DNA of 64,000 nt from Haemophilus influenzae (GTDB taxonomy: Bacteria > Pseudomonadota > Gammaproteobacteria > Enterobacterales > Pasteurellaceae): assembly GCF_001457655.1 (NCBI RefSeq), contig NZ_LN831035.1, positions 1,674,001-1,738,000 on the forward strand, given 5' to 3'. Shown here in pieces: positions 13,701 to 54,318 of the stretch (positions are counted from its first letter, which is position 1; every line of letters starts with the position of its first letter). The notes below the pieces were generated by a model that saw nothing but the letters and a program-made list of their open reading frames with translations, was not told where the DNA came from and did not search any database. A program made the position numbers and the translations under genes.

Positions 13701-14404
13701 TGTTTTTGTTCCTGTTCTATTTTATTTACCAAAAAATCTAACACTGCCACGCTATAATCATCGTTATAAAGCGTACTCGCAGTGAGTACATATTTTCCCC
13801 CAATAACAACGTAAGGATAGGTAAAAACACCATATTCTTCCGTCAATTCAATCGCATTTTGAATTTGTTCTTTTACGCTTTGTGAATTTTCAGTTTGAAT
13901 AAATAACTGCTTATCTAGCCCTTGTTCTTCTGCCCATTGTTGAATTTTATTTGATGTAGACAATTCTGTATAACGGGATTTTTCTGAAGTTTCAAATAAC
14001 AAAACATTGGATAATTCGCCCGCACTTAATGCTTGCAAAGTATAAAAAATACGTGCGCTAAACTGGCTATCGGCAGTTGCAATAGGATATTGTTCCAACA
14101 CAACTTTATATGTGCGTATTTGGCTATAAAGCTCTAAAATATCCTGCGCTGAAGAACACACTCGACAATCATAATCAAAAAAGAATTGAATGCGGATTTT
14201 TTTATCGGCTCGAGACGCTTGTTCAATAGGTTCTTTATAAGAAAAATAATCACGCCCGTCTTCAAAATAGATTGTGTCCCTTGATGGCAAGTGCGGAGAA
14301 TTTTGCACTGAAAATTCTTTCTGATTGACTTCTGCTAAAACAAACGACGATAAAAAAAGCAAACAAAATGCCAATAACCCTTTTAATTTCATTCTATCAC
14401 TCAT
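13697..14404 (-). CDS. Exported DsbA-like thioredoxin-fold protein
   Basis: A 235-residue protein with a signal peptide ([19 protein letters not shown], cleavage near residue 24), a redox motif CRVC at 80-83 in DYDCRVCSS, and a cis-Pro loop TYPYVVIGG near 205. It is likely a periplasmic thiol oxidoreductase, but it is not classical DsbA, and the substrate is unknown. ATG 14404 overlaps the recJ stop; a second ATG four codons in (MKLKGLL) gives a cleaner signal peptide and may be the true start. It overlaps mtnN by four bases, suggesting translational coupling. Similar proteins appear in integrating conjugative elements, but nothing here suggests mobility. Confidence 0.75.
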
Positions 14405-16124
14405 CTATCGGCTCAATATAATCTACCAATAATTGTAGGCTACGATTGCCACGAAATTCGTTAATCTCTAATTTATAGGCTAAACGAGCCTGTTTAATTG
14501 AAAAATCAGGATACAATCTTGTATTAATATTAAATGCAATCGCATCTAATAAAACCCCACCTTGTTTCGGTTCTAGCAACATTTTTAGATGATTTTTATT
14601 TTGCCCAATTGCACGCTGGTCTAAAATTTTAAATTCGCCATCAAAACAAGGCTCAGGAAACCCTTGCCCCCAAGTGCCTACTGATTTTATCAGCTCTGCC
14701 GTTTCAAGATTAAATTCATTTGAATTCAGTTCGCCATCTGTCCAAATTATGCTTTGCATATGTTCTTCATCAAACCAATCGGCAACGGTTTGATTAAAAA
14801 GATGTTGAAAATCCGCAAAATATTCTTCGCGAATACTCAAGCCTGCCGCCATTGCGTGTCCGCCAAATTTTAAAATTATATTAGGATGTTGCGAATGAAT
14901 ACGCTCTAAAACATCGCGCATATGTAACCCCTCAATAGAACGAGCTGAACCTTTCAAAATTCCCTCACCATCTTGCGTAAAGGCAATCACTGGACGATGA
15001 TATTGATCCTTAACCCTTGATGAAACAATGCCTAATACGCCTTGATGCCAATCGGGCTGATAAAGCGTAATACCATAGGGTAACTCTTTAAAAAGTGCGG
15101 TAAGATTTTGACAAATTTTTATTGCCTCAAGTTTCATACCCGCTTCAATTTCTTTACGCGTTTGGTTGAGTTGGTCGAGATCTAAAGCTAATTCTCTGGC
15201 TTTTGACATTTCGTTCGCCAGCAAAAGCTCCACCCCAATCGACATATTATCTAAACGCCCTGCCGCATTTAAACGAGGTCCGATACAAAAACCGATATCA
15301 CTTGAGGTAAACTGTTCAACATTACGGTTAGCCACTTCAGCCAACGCAATAATACCAGGACGACAACGCCGTGCACGAATCCGCATTAAACCTTGATAAG
15401 CAAGGATACGATTATTTTGATCTAAAGGCACAACATCCGCGACAGTACCCAATGCCACCAGATCGAGCAAGTCAGTAAAATTAGGTTGTGTTTCTGCCGT
15501 AAAAATACCGAGTTCACGAAATTTTGCACGCACCGCCAGCATCAAATAAAATGCCACACCAACGCCTGCTAAGGATTTTGAAGGGAAATGACACTGACTT
15601 AAATTAGGATTAACAATCGCATCGGCTGGCGGCAAAGTTTCGGGCGGTAAATGATGATCCGTGACTAAAACTCGAATGCCTTTTTCTTTCAAAAATGCAA
15701 TGCCTTCAAAAGATGAAACGCCGTTATCCACCGTCATTAAAAGCTGAACGCCCTTTTCAAGAGCCATTTCAGCCACAGGAATACTCAAACCATAACCTTG
15801 TTCAAATCGATTTGGTACAAGGTAATCTACATCGGAAAAACCAAGTTGTCTTAAAGCCAGCACACTCAATGCTGTGCTGGTTGCACCATCAGCATCGAAA
15901 TCCCCAACAATCACTATTTTTTGCTGTTGTTGATAGGCTTCAACTAATAAATTTACCGCTTGATCAATGCCATATAATTGATTTGGATTGAGCATTGATT
16001 TCAAAGTGCGGTCTAATTCTTTGGTGTTTTTAATATGACGAGCGCGATAAAGGCGATCTAATAACGGATGGTTTGAAACAGAATTTCCAACTGGAATTTC
16101 ACGGCGTTTGATAAGTTTTTTCAC
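14397..16124 (-). CDS. recJ: Single-stranded-DNA exonuclease RecJ
   Basis: 5'-3' single-strand exonuclease for mismatch repair, base excision repair and the RecF pathway. The 575-residue protein shows the DHH phosphoesterase motifs VGDFDADGATSTA, TVDNGVSS and TDHHLPP in order through residues 75-170, then the DHHA1 region with GGHAMAAGLS near 420. Length matches E. coli RecJ (577). Its stop overlaps the start of the thioredoxin-like gene (ATGA). In E. coli recJ lies beside dsbC; here a small toxin-like locus has been placed between them. Confidence 0.96.
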   Translation of the reverse strand: MKKLIKRREIPVGNSVSNHPLLDRLYRARHIKNTKELDRTLKSMLNPNQLYGIDQAVNLLVEAYQQQQKIVIVGDFDADGATSTALSVLALRQLGFSDVDYLVPNRFEQGYGLSIPVAEMALEKGVQLLMTVDNGVSSFEGIAFLKEKGIRVLVTDHHLPPETLPPADAIVNPNLSQCHFPSKSLAGVGVAFYLMLAVRAKFRELGIFTAETQPNFTDLLDLVALGTVADVVPLDQNNRILAYQGLMRIRARRCRPGIIALAEVANRNVEQFTSSDIGFCIGPRLNAAGRLDNMSIGVELLLANEMSKARELALDLDQLNQTRKEIEAGMKLEAIKICQNLTALFKELPYGITLYQPDWHQGVLGIVSSRVKDQYHRPVIAFTQDGEGILKGSARSIEGLHMRDVLERIHSQHPNIILKFGGHAMAAGLSIREEYFADFQHLFNQTVADWFDEEHMQSIIWTDGELNSNEFNLETAELIKSVGTWGQGFPEPCFDGEFKILDQRAIGQNKNHLKMLLEPKQGGVLLDAIAFNINTRLYPDFSIKQARLAYKLEINEFRGNRSLQLLVDYIEPIDE

Positions 16125-16191
16125 TGGATATTAATTCATACCTAAAAGCAAAAAGCTGTTGAAATCAACAGCTCTTTTATCTATACTTTTT

Positions 16192-16249
16192 CCTGTCGGT
16201 CAGGGCTTTTAACCCTGAATGCTGACAGGGGTTAAAAGCCCTACTGACC
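16192..16249 (+). promoter_or_regulatory. Alternating hairpin leader of small peptide locus 1
   Basis: Two mutually exclusive structures can form. CCTGTC (16192-16197) can pair with GACAGG (16224-16229), or the 18 bases from 16198 (GGTCAGGGC...) can pair with GGGTTAAAAGCCCT...GACC at 16229-16249. Such leaders hide or expose ribosome sites in type I toxin mRNAs. Locus 2 has the same three-arm logic with different bases. Confidence 0.6.
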
Positions 16250-16283
16250 ATTAGTCTAACTATTGTGTCAGCTAAGGATTTTA

Positions 16284-16355
16284 ATGATGCCTAAATTATG
16301 CATTTATATCATAATTTTTGTGTTGTTAATGCTTTTAAGCTCCCCAGCATATTAA
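16284..16355 (+). CDS. 23-residue hydrophobic peptide, Ibs-like type I toxin candidate (locus 1)
   Basis: A tiny frame from ATG 16284 to TAA 16355 encodes 23 residues: Met-Met-Pro-Lys start, a hydrophobic run (CIYIIIFVLLML) and the end LLSSPAY. AAGGA lies five bases before the ATG. E. coli Ibs toxins have the same plan: 18-19 residues, MM-K start, I/L/V core, end SFSAY. Locus 2 holds a relative ending LSFSSPAW, and both share AGCTCCCCAGC at the DNA level. A Rho-independent terminator follows at once. It lies between dsbC and recJ on the opposite strand to both. Membrane toxicity is inferred, not shown. Confidence 0.65.
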   Translation: MMPKLCIYIIIFVLLMLLSSPAY

Positions 16356-16359
16356 GCAT

Positions 16360-16369
16360 AACCGACTAA
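16360..16369. repeat. Block AACCGACTAA conserved in both small-peptide loci
   Basis: Lies between the peptide stop and its terminator; locus 2 has AACCAACTAA at 54248-54257, differing at one base. On the minus strand it reads TTAGTCGGTT and may belong to an antisense promoter. Confidence 0.5.
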
Positions 16370-16372
16370 ACA

Positions 16373-16402
16373 CAAGGGGTAGGCAACTGCCCCTTGCTCT
16401 TT
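16373..16402 (+). terminator. Terminator of small peptide locus 1
   Basis: CAAGGGG and CCCCTTG form a stem with a 10-base loop, followed by CTCTTTATT. On the minus strand it has no T run, so it serves the plus-strand peptide transcript better than dsbC. Confidence 0.75.
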
Positions 16403-16411
16403 ATTATAAAA

Positions 16412-17101
16412 TTATTGTGCCGTTTCTTCAAGAGCTCTTAATAAATCAGCTGGTTTTAAATAACCGCCAATAAGCTCACCAGTTGAGGTAACAATACTTG
16501 GTGTTCCTCGTACACCAAATTGAATACCTAATTCATAATGTTTTTTCACGATATTTGGCGTTTTAACTTCTTTTGGTAAATTGCCTTTTTCTGCTTCATT
16601 TAAAGCAAAAACGGGATCTTTCGCCGTCCAAATCGCTTCCATTTGTTTCGCCGTTTGATTATTCATACCTGCACGAGGGAAAGCTAAATAACGCACGGTA
16701 ATGCCAAGATCGTTATATTCTTTTAATTGCTGATGTAATAAATGGCAATAATGGCAGGTAATATCCATAAATACTGTTACTACGTGTTTTTCATTTTTCG
16801 CAGGATAAACAATCATCTCGTCTTTATAAGAATTAAGTTTATCCACTAAAATTTTACCTGCGACATCAACAGGGCCATTATTTGTGAGTTCATAAAGTTT
16901 ACCTTCAAAAAGATATTTTCCATCTTCGCTCACATAGAGTATACCTTGATCCGTGACAGCCGTTTTAATGCCTGAAATCGGCGAAGATTTAATAACAATA
17001 TTTGATATATTAAAAGACTGTAATTTGCGTTTAATTGCTGCATCATCTGCCATTGCATTAGCCGCAGCCACGCACAAAAGTGCGGTAAAAATTTTCTTCA
17101 T
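16412..17101 (-). CDS. dsbC: Thiol:disulfide interchange protein DsbC
   Basis: Periplasmic disulfide isomerase, 229 residues with a signal peptide ending near AAANAMA, an N-terminal dimerisation domain (about 20-80) and a thioredoxin-fold catalytic domain. The active site is CHYC at 116-119; E. coli uses CGYC. The structural second disulfide of E. coli DsbC is missing: apart from the signal-peptide Cys no other cysteine remains. A cis-Pro loop RGTPSIV lies near 195. It is divergent from prfB and upstream, on the same strand, of recJ. Confidence 0.94.
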   Translation of the reverse strand: MKKIFTALLCVAAANAMADDAAIKRKLQSFNISNIVIKSSPISGIKTAVTDQGILYVSEDGKYLFEGKLYELTNNGPVDVAGKILVDKLNSYKDEMIVYPAKNEKHVVTVFMDITCHYCHLLHQQLKEYNDLGITVRYLAFPRAGMNNQTAKQMEAIWTAKDPVFALNEAEKGNLPKEVKTPNIVKKHYELGIQFGVRGTPSIVTSTGELIGGYLKPADLLRALEETAQ

Positions 17102-37480: not shown

Positions 37481-37509
37481 TTGTCCTTTCCTACCCTTTT
37501 CCTTACAAT
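37481..37509 (+). promoter_or_regulatory. Promoter of gcvB
   Basis: TTGTCC (37481-37486), a 17-base spacer and TACAAT (37504-37509) form a good sigma-70 promoter, divergent from gcvA. The predicted start is near 37516. Confidence 0.75.
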
Positions 37510-37515
37510 ACAACC

Positions 37516-37690
37516 ATACTTAATGATTGGTAATTCCTTACTAGTTAATGAGTTTCAGACTTAAGTATGATGTTGTGTTTGCATATAGTTCGGGAAACCG
37601 AACTTGAGTAACAATTTGTTACTCATTTACTTCCTGTATATTATTAAACCGATTTGGTTAAACGCTGCTCTCATTGAGTGGCGTTTTTTT
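37516..37690 (+). ncRNA. gcvB: GcvB small regulatory RNA
   Basis: About 175 nt, divergent from gcvA as in E. coli. The G/U-rich seed GATGTTGTGTTTGCATA (37568-37584) closely matches E. coli GcvB region R1, and TTACTTCCTGTATATT (37629-37644) matches its conserved CACUUCCUGUACAUU. Hairpins: ATACTTAA/TTAAGTAT around 37516-37567, AGTTCGG-GAAA-CCGAACT (37587-37604), GAGTAAC/GTTACTC (37607-37625) and a terminal stem AACGC/GCGTT followed by T7 (37661-37690). GcvB with Hfq represses amino-acid and peptide transporter mRNAs; dppB and the art genes in this window are candidate targets. The 5' end is inferred from the promoter. Confidence 0.85.
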
Positions 37691-39090: not shown

Positions 39091-39205
39091 AAGTAAACCT
39101 TTTTGCTAAATTAAAAACCTGCGAATTGTAGCACAACGACTTCACATCCAACGAAATATTTCACTTGTCTTGCTAAAATAGAACTTCCCCACTAGAATAC
39201 CCCCC

Positions 39206-39239
39206 GTAGTTCGCAAACCTCCTACAATAAAAAACTAGG
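39206..39239 (+). promoter_or_regulatory. PreQ1-I-type riboswitch before queC
   Basis: GTAG (39206-39209) pairs with CTAC (39222-39225) as stem P1; the loop contains TTCGCAAACCT; an A-rich linker (AATAAAAAACT) follows and ends in AGG (39237-39239), which can pair with CCT of the loop to close the P2 pseudoknot. This is the layout of class I preQ1 aptamers such as the Thermoanaerobacter one (loop UCGCAGUAACC, tail AACAAAACAAGG). The AGG is also the ribosome site, six bases before the queC ATG, so ligand binding should block translation. Confidence 0.82.
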
Positions 39240-39245
39240 TAAAAT

Positions 39246-54024: not shown

Positions 54025-54080
54025 CGGTAAAAGCAAAAACCGCTAGATAAGCGGCTTTTATATGATAGAATAACCAGTGG

Positions 54081-54126
54081 TTGGTCAGGTACGTTATTGC
54101 CTGACTGGCGGGTCAGGCAGTAACTC
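54081..54126 (+). promoter_or_regulatory. Alternating hairpin leader of small peptide locus 2
   Basis: Three arms compete: GGTCAGG near 54090, a central TTATTGCCTGAC and GTCAGGCAGTAA. The middle arm can pair with either neighbour; the middle-right pairing has 12 of 13 matches. Locus 1 has the same logic and also starts GGTCAGG, which suggests a conserved RNA switch over the ribosome site. Confidence 0.55.
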
Positions 54127-54171
54127 AATCTCGATCAGCTTTGTTTAACAACTCTGAAAGGAGATAGCCTT

Positions 54172-54240
54172 ATGATAAAAATCATCTTAATGATTATTAT
54201 CGGGTTCTTGTTGCTGTCCTTTAGCTCCCCAGCTTGGTAG
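54172..54240 (+). CDS. 22-residue hydrophobic peptide, Ibs-like type I toxin candidate (locus 2)
   Basis: A tiny frame from ATG 54172 to TAG 54240 encodes 22 residues: MIKIILMIIIGFLLL, then SFSSPAW. A strong AAAGGAG lies before the ATG. The peptide is almost all Ile/Leu/Phe in one predicted membrane span with one Lys near the start. It is a relative of the locus 1 peptide (ends LLSSPAY) and has the plan of E. coli Ibs toxins (end SFSAY). It sits between metK and sprT on the opposite strand to both, and a Rho-independent terminator follows 17 bases later. Toxicity is inferred. Confidence 0.7.
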   Translation: MIKIILMIIIGFLLLSFSSPAW

Positions 54241-54247
54241 CAACCTA

Positions 54248-54257
54248 AACCAACTAA
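54248..54257. repeat. Block AACCAACTAA conserved in both small-peptide loci
   Basis: Partner of AACCGACTAA at 16360-16369, in the same place between the peptide stop and the terminator. Confidence 0.5.
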
Positions 54258-54284
54258 GGCAACAAGAAACCTTGTTGCCTTTTC
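54258..54284 (+). terminator. Terminator of small peptide locus 2
   Basis: GGCAACAAG-AAAC-CTTGTTGCC-TTTT, a perfect 9-bp stem. It lies 35 bases beyond the metK stop on the other strand, where it lacks a T run, so it mainly serves the peptide transcript. Confidence 0.82.
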
Positions 54285-54318
54285 AATATAAGCCTTTCAA
54301 ACTAAAAATTCAAGCCTA

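Follow-up and report, generated by a model that had tools for sequence, protein, structure and literature searches.

The closest described systems to the locus analysed here are the Ibs/Sib pairs of Escherichia coli (PF13956, RF00113), together with the hok/Sok and aapA/IsoA systems, which offer a parallel at the level of mRNA folding. As summarised in a review (PMC4147584), the overlap of Sib with ibs takes in the entire coding region together with the ribosome site, a longer Sib form that reaches the ibs 5' UTR exists, and ibs mRNA rises when RNase III is missing. The hok and aapA mRNAs are described in another account (PMC6733600) as forming transient early hairpins and then a long-distance interaction between the 5' and 3' ends, with the ribosome site sequestered by hairpins or by a downstream anti-ribosome-site. 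Ibs-like genes have also been reported from the same bacterial family as the present locus, where two transcribed short frames of Histophilus somni, HSP2 and HSP5, had E. coli IbsC and IbsB3 as their best matches (PMC3262788). The two table rows and one sentence that deal with these frames name no antitoxin for them, and this was the sole mention of Ibs-like genes in Pasteurellaceae in the literature searched, the main surveys lying outside that search.

The analysis covered a 64,000-nucleotide stretch of Haemophilus influenzae DNA (hereafter the window), in which a sequence-only reading had proposed an Ibs-like gene pair between dsbC and recJ. Both neighbours were identified by NCBIfam on the minus strand (recJ, 14397-16124; dsbC, 16412-17101), and the pair between them carries no annotation in H. 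influenzae. The 23-codon hydrophobic frame of that proposal was confirmed on the plus strand at 16284-16355 (MMPKLCIYIIIFVLLMLLSSPAY), with ATG codons at 16284 and 16287 and the stop codon at 16353-16355. The good ribosome site ascribed to it was read from the sequence as AAGGA at 16274-16278 (+), and it is identical in 12 orthologues. These orthologues were obtained by searching 140 Pasteurellaceae genomes with a 260-base query; near-whole-unit matches were found in 12 of them, comprising all 10 genomes of the genus (95-100% identity) and two of Actinobacillus (88%). The frame is open in all 12 orthologues, with indels in the leader (for example in L003, L005 and L007) and after the stop codon and none inside the frame. 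The MM start, which had been taken as an Ibs-like mark, did not hold up, as the first ATG (16284) is kept in only four of the 12 (L002, L003, L005 and L007). Since MM is not conserved, the conserved start is probably 16287, giving 22 amino acids.

The A. porcinus unit likewise lies between recJ and dsbC, and the spacer outside the unit is unalignable between that species and the window. Within the genus, pN/pS was 0.34, a value based on six distinct frames only, and the window and A. porcinus frames are separated by seven nonsynonymous changes versus one synonymous change; the codon signal is thus modest, and it weighs against the reading preferred below. The search of the family with the peptide, which had been proposed as a check, recovered the 12 orthologues; beyond them, the window-peptide profile found no relative better than E 0.0149.

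A scan of positions 15800-16800 gave three terminator-like sites against a shuffle mean of 0.7. It also gave three promoter-like sites against a shuffle mean of 3.9, so that, taken together, the promoter-like sites of this region are no more numerous than chance would give. The promoter-like site of the toxin mRNA, TTGAAA-17-TATACT at 16159-16187 (+; 10/12 matches), overlaps the antisense terminator, and its -10 element reads TATAAT in the A. porcinus copies. The scan also recovered both terminators of the earlier proposal, namely the frame's own terminator-like hairpin at 16373-16396 (+) and that of the opposite strand at 16177-16150 (-). The antisense promoter-like site, TTGAAG-17-TATAAT at 16403-16431 (-; 10/12, reached by 2% of shuffles), is situated in the end of dsbC. 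From these promoter- and terminator-like sites and a match to the Rfam SIB_RNA model at 16280-16431, an antisense (antitoxin) RNA of about 250 nt is predicted at 16148-16396 (-), with a predicted length of 251 compared with 241 at L099, another locus of the same genome. The plus strand at 16188-16405 folds at z -7.60 and the minus strand at 16290-16145 at z -7.56, with 0 of 200 shuffles as good in either case.

This arrangement resembles E. coli Ibs/Sib in having a hydrophobic peptide of about 20 residues that ends in S-x-x-A-Y and a terminator hairpin on one strand that would form the 5' hairpin of the other; promoter- and terminator-like sites also stand where an antisense RNA over the whole frame and the ribosome site would require them. 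The predicted antisense RNA differs from E. coli SibC, which is annotated at 141 nt; because the review describes a longer Sib form (PMC4147584), antisense length alone fails to separate the window locus from Sib.

Profile and covariance tests were used to place the locus relative to the curated families. SIB_RNA aligned over the whole model with the minus strand at 16280-16431 (32.8 bits, E 7.8e-5) and was the best of 4227 families, at a score short of its gathering threshold of 56 bits. Three of seven orthologous loci matched the model at E<=0.1 (28.0-32.4 bits). For the window peptide, the sole Pfam listing was Ibs_toxin (PF13956), at 12 bits and E 0.22 against a cut-off of 27. Over the 140 family genomes, this profile passed its cut-off in one, and the genome of the window gave no match at E<=10; NCBIfam returned nothing for the peptide at E<=10. 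Assigning the locus to Ibs/Sib by name was rejected, since the Pfam and Rfam cut-offs are unreached. The other Rfam matches on the unit (mir-3119, E 0.0021; AgrB, E 0.034; sok, E 0.047, with 18.4 of 59 bits) were likewise set aside, all being far below their gathering scores. Across the window, two Rfam matches exceed the gathering score, GcvB RNA (37500-37690) and a PreQ1 riboswitch (39200-39244).

A profile of 55 canonical Pasteurellaceae peptides scored the window peptide at 17.6 bits, the peptide of locus F at 22.4 bits and E. coli IbsC at 26.0 bits, and for each of the three none of 500 shuffles did as well. The number of shuffles as good, again of 500, was 52 for the A. porcinus orthologue, 152 for L100, 436 for the second window peptide described below, 481 for D, 330 for L217, 127 for L215 and 149 for L220, so that none of these seven stands clearly above its shuffles. 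By this measure, the window peptide appears to resemble Ibs beyond its composition, and the A. porcinus orthologue does not. The Ibs reading was therefore largely right and its interpretation partly supported: the SIB_RNA match, the peptide profile and the shared layout speak for an Ibs-like locus, while strict Ibs/Sib membership is unsupported in view of both cut-offs, of a Sib closing stem in which most outer pairs are broken in the window alignment, of the unconserved MM, and of differences in the leader and in antisense length.

The folding of the mRNA was then considered through minimum-energy folds of its prefixes. The two mutually exclusive hairpins that had been claimed for the leader were predicted in these folds. 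The first (16193-16228, +) occurs in prefixes of 36 to 44 nt and is confined to those of at most 44 nt, and the second (16202-16242, +; arms 16202-16215 and 16229-16242, fully complementary) appears from 48 nt. A pairing of the 5' and 3' ends is added here to those leader features. GTCGGT, at the first bases of the predicted mRNA (16195-16200, +), pairs with an intermediate partner, ACTGAC (16243-16248, +), in the folds of 56- to 68-nt prefixes and, by the fold and the arm comparison, with ACCGAC (16361-16366, +) in the full-length mRNA. In the predicted order, the 5' end forms a hairpin while the prefix is no longer than about 44 nt; at about 60 nt the second hairpin is in place and the 5' end is paired with bases downstream of it; and at full length the 5'-3' pairing is present. 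This three-state refolding was predicted for all eight branch loci tested against 0 of 1200 shuffles, under criteria that were fixed but chosen after the folds had been seen. Among the 58 canonical loci that have a toxin-promoter score of at least 9, it was predicted in none, the last step being tested slightly differently. The 5'-3' pairing taken alone arose in 346 of 1200 shuffles, that is, commonly by chance.

For the window mRNA at full length, the folds leave the ribosome site 96-99% unpaired. By thermodynamic prediction, opening of the start region costs 6.7-12.5 kcal/mol, and removal of the 3' arm shifts this cost by -1.7 to +2.6 kcal/mol over eight loci, with no consistent sign. A hok-like switch opened by 3' trimming is unsupported, because removal of the 3' arm barely moves the opening cost of the start region. 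The mRNA would share with hok and aapA the succession of transient hairpins and long-distance 5'-3' interaction. The ribosome sites of those mRNAs are described as sequestered (PMC6733600); in the folds predicted here, concealment of the start site by the 5'-3' pairing is not seen.

The window locus is a member of a divergent branch. In this branch a 5' element, GGYYGGUCAGG, is predicted to take three pairing partners one after another, ending with one near the 3' end. Branch loci are recognised by this element, by the strength of their second hairpin, and by a stretch between the stop codon and the terminator that is complementary to GYYGGU. A search of the family with a leader model had also been suggested, and it was carried out with an RNA model (R1) built from 13 leaders. 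R1 matched 30 of the 140 Pasteurellaceae genomes at E<=1, several of the matches being model members or their orthologues. An E below 1e-6 was reached in 21 genomes (10 of the genus, seven of g2, two of g14, G130 and G023). Against 394 genomes of the order, seven were matched at E<=0.1, six of them in Pasteurellaceae and the seventh being G498 (E 0.0076). Inspection of the frames covered the R1 matches other than those in G030, G048, G050, G052 and G087 (E 0.53-0.95), and two matches (L219 in G028 and L222 in G037) were dropped as no small hydrophobic frame was found. As far as the matches tell, the Histophilus somni frames lie outside the branch (PMC3262788). As to a mobile context, no blastn match was obtained in phage or plasmid records, and no relative was found in viral contigs by tblastn at E<=1e-3. 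We met no description of the refolding branch in the literature searched, which did not extend to the main surveys, and priority is not claimed. In three branch loci (L214, L216 and L218) the toxin frame is broken or shortened and the 5' element is kept, and G059 carries two branch units in tandem about 400 bases apart.

A second branch locus, absent from the earlier proposal, was identified in the window at 54079-54290, between a SprT-family gene and metK. Its leader (54079-54168, +) matches R1 at E 4.2e-16, with a close relative among the R1 input rows, and frame inspection placed its own frame, MIKIILMIIIGFLLLSFSSPAW, at 54172-54240 (+). Arms for a 5'-3' pairing are present, both of its strands carry terminator-like hairpins, and a weak SIB_RNA match lies at 54174-54313 (-; 21.0 bits, E 0.062).

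The matched 5' and 3' arms were seen directly in the sequences. A total of 29 distinct segments gave nine kinds of paired arms, and 53 of 54 inner arm cells were paired (48 Watson-Crick, five G-U and one mismatch). Pairing was complete for the kind's own arms in eight of nine kinds versus 23 of 58 swapped combinations; the 3' arm was chosen as whichever part of a 42-base stretch gave the best complement, with L005 and L006 set by orthology, a choice that favours pairing, and the independent arm changes are fewer than nine because the kinds share descent. Each of the five wobble pairs is G-U when read on the mRNA and A-C when read on the antisense RNA, which gives only a hint that the mRNA may be the strand under selection, because the picking of arms favours G-U over A-C. 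The consensus fold of 16 aligned units contained the first hairpin, one pair of which is G-C in 10 rows, U-A in four and U-G in two. The 5'-3' pairing was absent from this consensus fold, in which the 3' arms stand out of register.

We consider it reasonably probable that the window locus is an Ibs/Sib-related type I toxin-antitoxin system from a branch that we encountered in Pasteurellaceae alone, controlled by an antisense RNA and with an mRNA that folds stepwise. The alternative that fares best, which we judge unlikely, is that the refolding-leader loci are type I systems of separate origin, whose short hydrophobic peptides and antisense layouts converged on those of Ibs/Sib. The broken pairs of the Sib closing stem and the failure of any canonical locus to refold in three states would suit such an origin, as would the peptides of D, E and the A. 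porcinus orthologue, which score no better than many shuffles. Against this, no shuffle out of 500 scores as well on the canonical profile as the window peptide or that of F, both window loci align with the Sib model over its full length, branch loci D, E and F were likewise reached through the search with that model, and the promoter- and terminator-like sites occur in the same order as at canonical loci.

The relation to Ibs/Sib was examined further in a census of Sib-model loci across the family. The model matched 86 of the 140 genomes at E<=10, a level at which five of 14 control genomes also match, and at least 43 of the 140 at E<=0.001; among the matches listed, no family genome passes the SIB_RNA cut-off (best 55.6 vs 56 bits). 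We examined 84 of at least 98 places with E<=0.05, leaving 14 aside. A hydrophobic ATG frame of 17-30 residues was found antisense to the Sib match at 80 of the 84 places; applied to windows in the flanks, the same test was positive in 25 of 2920, and on the strand of the match itself in 0 of 84. The census is not fully independent because the model partly contains the antisense of the frame. The four frameless places are L135, L146, L161 and L175, the last of which has a GTG frame under a looser filter. Clusters of Ibs-like units were observed, with three within about 1.2 kb in L129 (G082:C8) and two in L176 (G120:C59), and G086 holds at least 12 Sib-model matches at E<=10. Downstream of three canonical loci in different genomes (L107, L110 and L120), the toxin strand carries small genes that resemble one another and begin MA(L/M)S.

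Two further loci lie in the genome of the window. L099 (G000, C1:943418-943563) scores 50.7 bits with the SIB model and is canonical, with a 19-residue peptide opposite, MIKLIILVVLLLLVSQTAY, and an antisense promoter TTGACA-17-TAATAT. L100 (G000, C1:821416-821568) scores 22.8 bits and has a 24-residue peptide opposite, MTKFMIKLVIIILLCLLLKSSTGY, and a leader unlike those of the window locus and L099.

The canonical mRNAs are predicted to pair the ribosome site with the tail beyond the stop codon in 52 of 64 distinct mRNAs versus 53 of 320 with shuffled tails, and the E. coli ibsC mRNA is predicted to fold in the same way. The stems are matched despite differing sequence, for example TTTTGAAGGG/CTCTTCAAAA and TAGGAACTG/CAGTTCCTA. 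The number of ribosome-site bases paired beyond the stop was 0 for the window locus, 0 for L147, nine for L143 and six for L157, these three being branch loci, and nine for L100; as L143, L157 and L100 also pair, this feature alone does not divide the branch from the canonical loci. A pairing between the 5' leader and the post-stop region common to all 80 loci was not found (own mean 13.11, mismatched 12.64, sd 2.32).

The antisense side of the census bears on another reading, in which the RNA of the minus strand amounts to no more than the 3' end of the dsbC transcript, running as far as the 16150 terminator, and the frame is an ordinarily controlled gene for a small membrane protein with no antitoxin. 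It draws on the position of dsbC upstream on the minus strand, with the antisense -35 element within its end, and on the chance-level number of promoter-like sites around the locus. The census points the other way, as the best antisense -10 element falls 47-62 nt past the stop codon in 75 of 80 loci, in varied contexts. An antisense promoter score of at least 10/12 was reached at 55 of the 80 versus 2.2% of shuffles, and a score of at least 9 at 70 of the 80 versus 14.2%. In A. porcinus, moreover, the spacer has changed and TTGAAA-16-TATAAT nonetheless recurs (by eye), with dsbC still upstream. This reading seems to us improbable, slightly more so than a separate origin. Upstream of the start codon, the best antisense terminator is most often found at a distance of about 135-145 nt, which gives an antisense RNA of about 240-255 nt, or of about 40 nt, which gives one of about 150 nt; other positions occur. 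That the locus is a structured RNA element, either a regulatory RNA or an attenuator, with the short frame untranslated, is very improbable: the very stable folds of both strands and the three branch loci that retain the 5' element beside a damaged frame would fit it, but none of the 12 orthologues has an interrupted frame, indels falling outside it only, the ribosome site is conserved, and a decaying toxin gene would itself look like toxin loss with the leader left.

Under the preferred reading of an Ibs/Sib-related, antisense-controlled system, the plus strand would give an mRNA of about 210 nt, encoding a membrane peptide of 22 residues with a single helix that would act on its own cell, and the minus strand an antisense RNA of about 250 nt from the promoter in the dsbC end, spanning the whole mRNA. 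The antisense RNA would be the antitoxin, blocking translation of the mRNA or marking it for degradation as a duplex. In the nascent mRNA, the GGYYGGUCAGG element would close the first hairpin; the second hairpin would then capture the first partner of the element, which would pair just downstream and, in the full-length mRNA, with its complement between the stop codon and the terminator. Through this stepwise folding, translation of the young mRNA may be held off until it is bound by the antisense RNA, as is proposed for aapA3 in the account of that system (PMC6733600). The three folding states are predicted; both transcripts, the toxicity, the repression and the silencing of the young mRNA through stepwise folding are what we infer from the features of the locus.

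A bolder version, which we put forward tentatively and hold to have somewhat less than an even chance, treats the refolding-leader loci as a type I toxin-antitoxin family of their own. An Ibs-like peptide would here have come under sequential co-transcriptional folding that is analogous to, and independent of, that of hok and aapA, and GGYYGGUCAGG would act as a relay that changes partner three times. The H. influenzae genome would then hold two such loci in the 64-kb window and two other Ibs-like loci.

If the preferred reading is true, Ibs/Sib-like loci would extend through Pasteurellaceae, where they would have been overlooked because their scores fall under the curated cut-offs. It raises the question of what role the 5'-3' closure plays if the ribosome site is not covered. 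The refolding branch, with its nine kinds of arms, would provide a compact and naturally varied model of how the mRNA of a harmful peptide is silenced during its synthesis.
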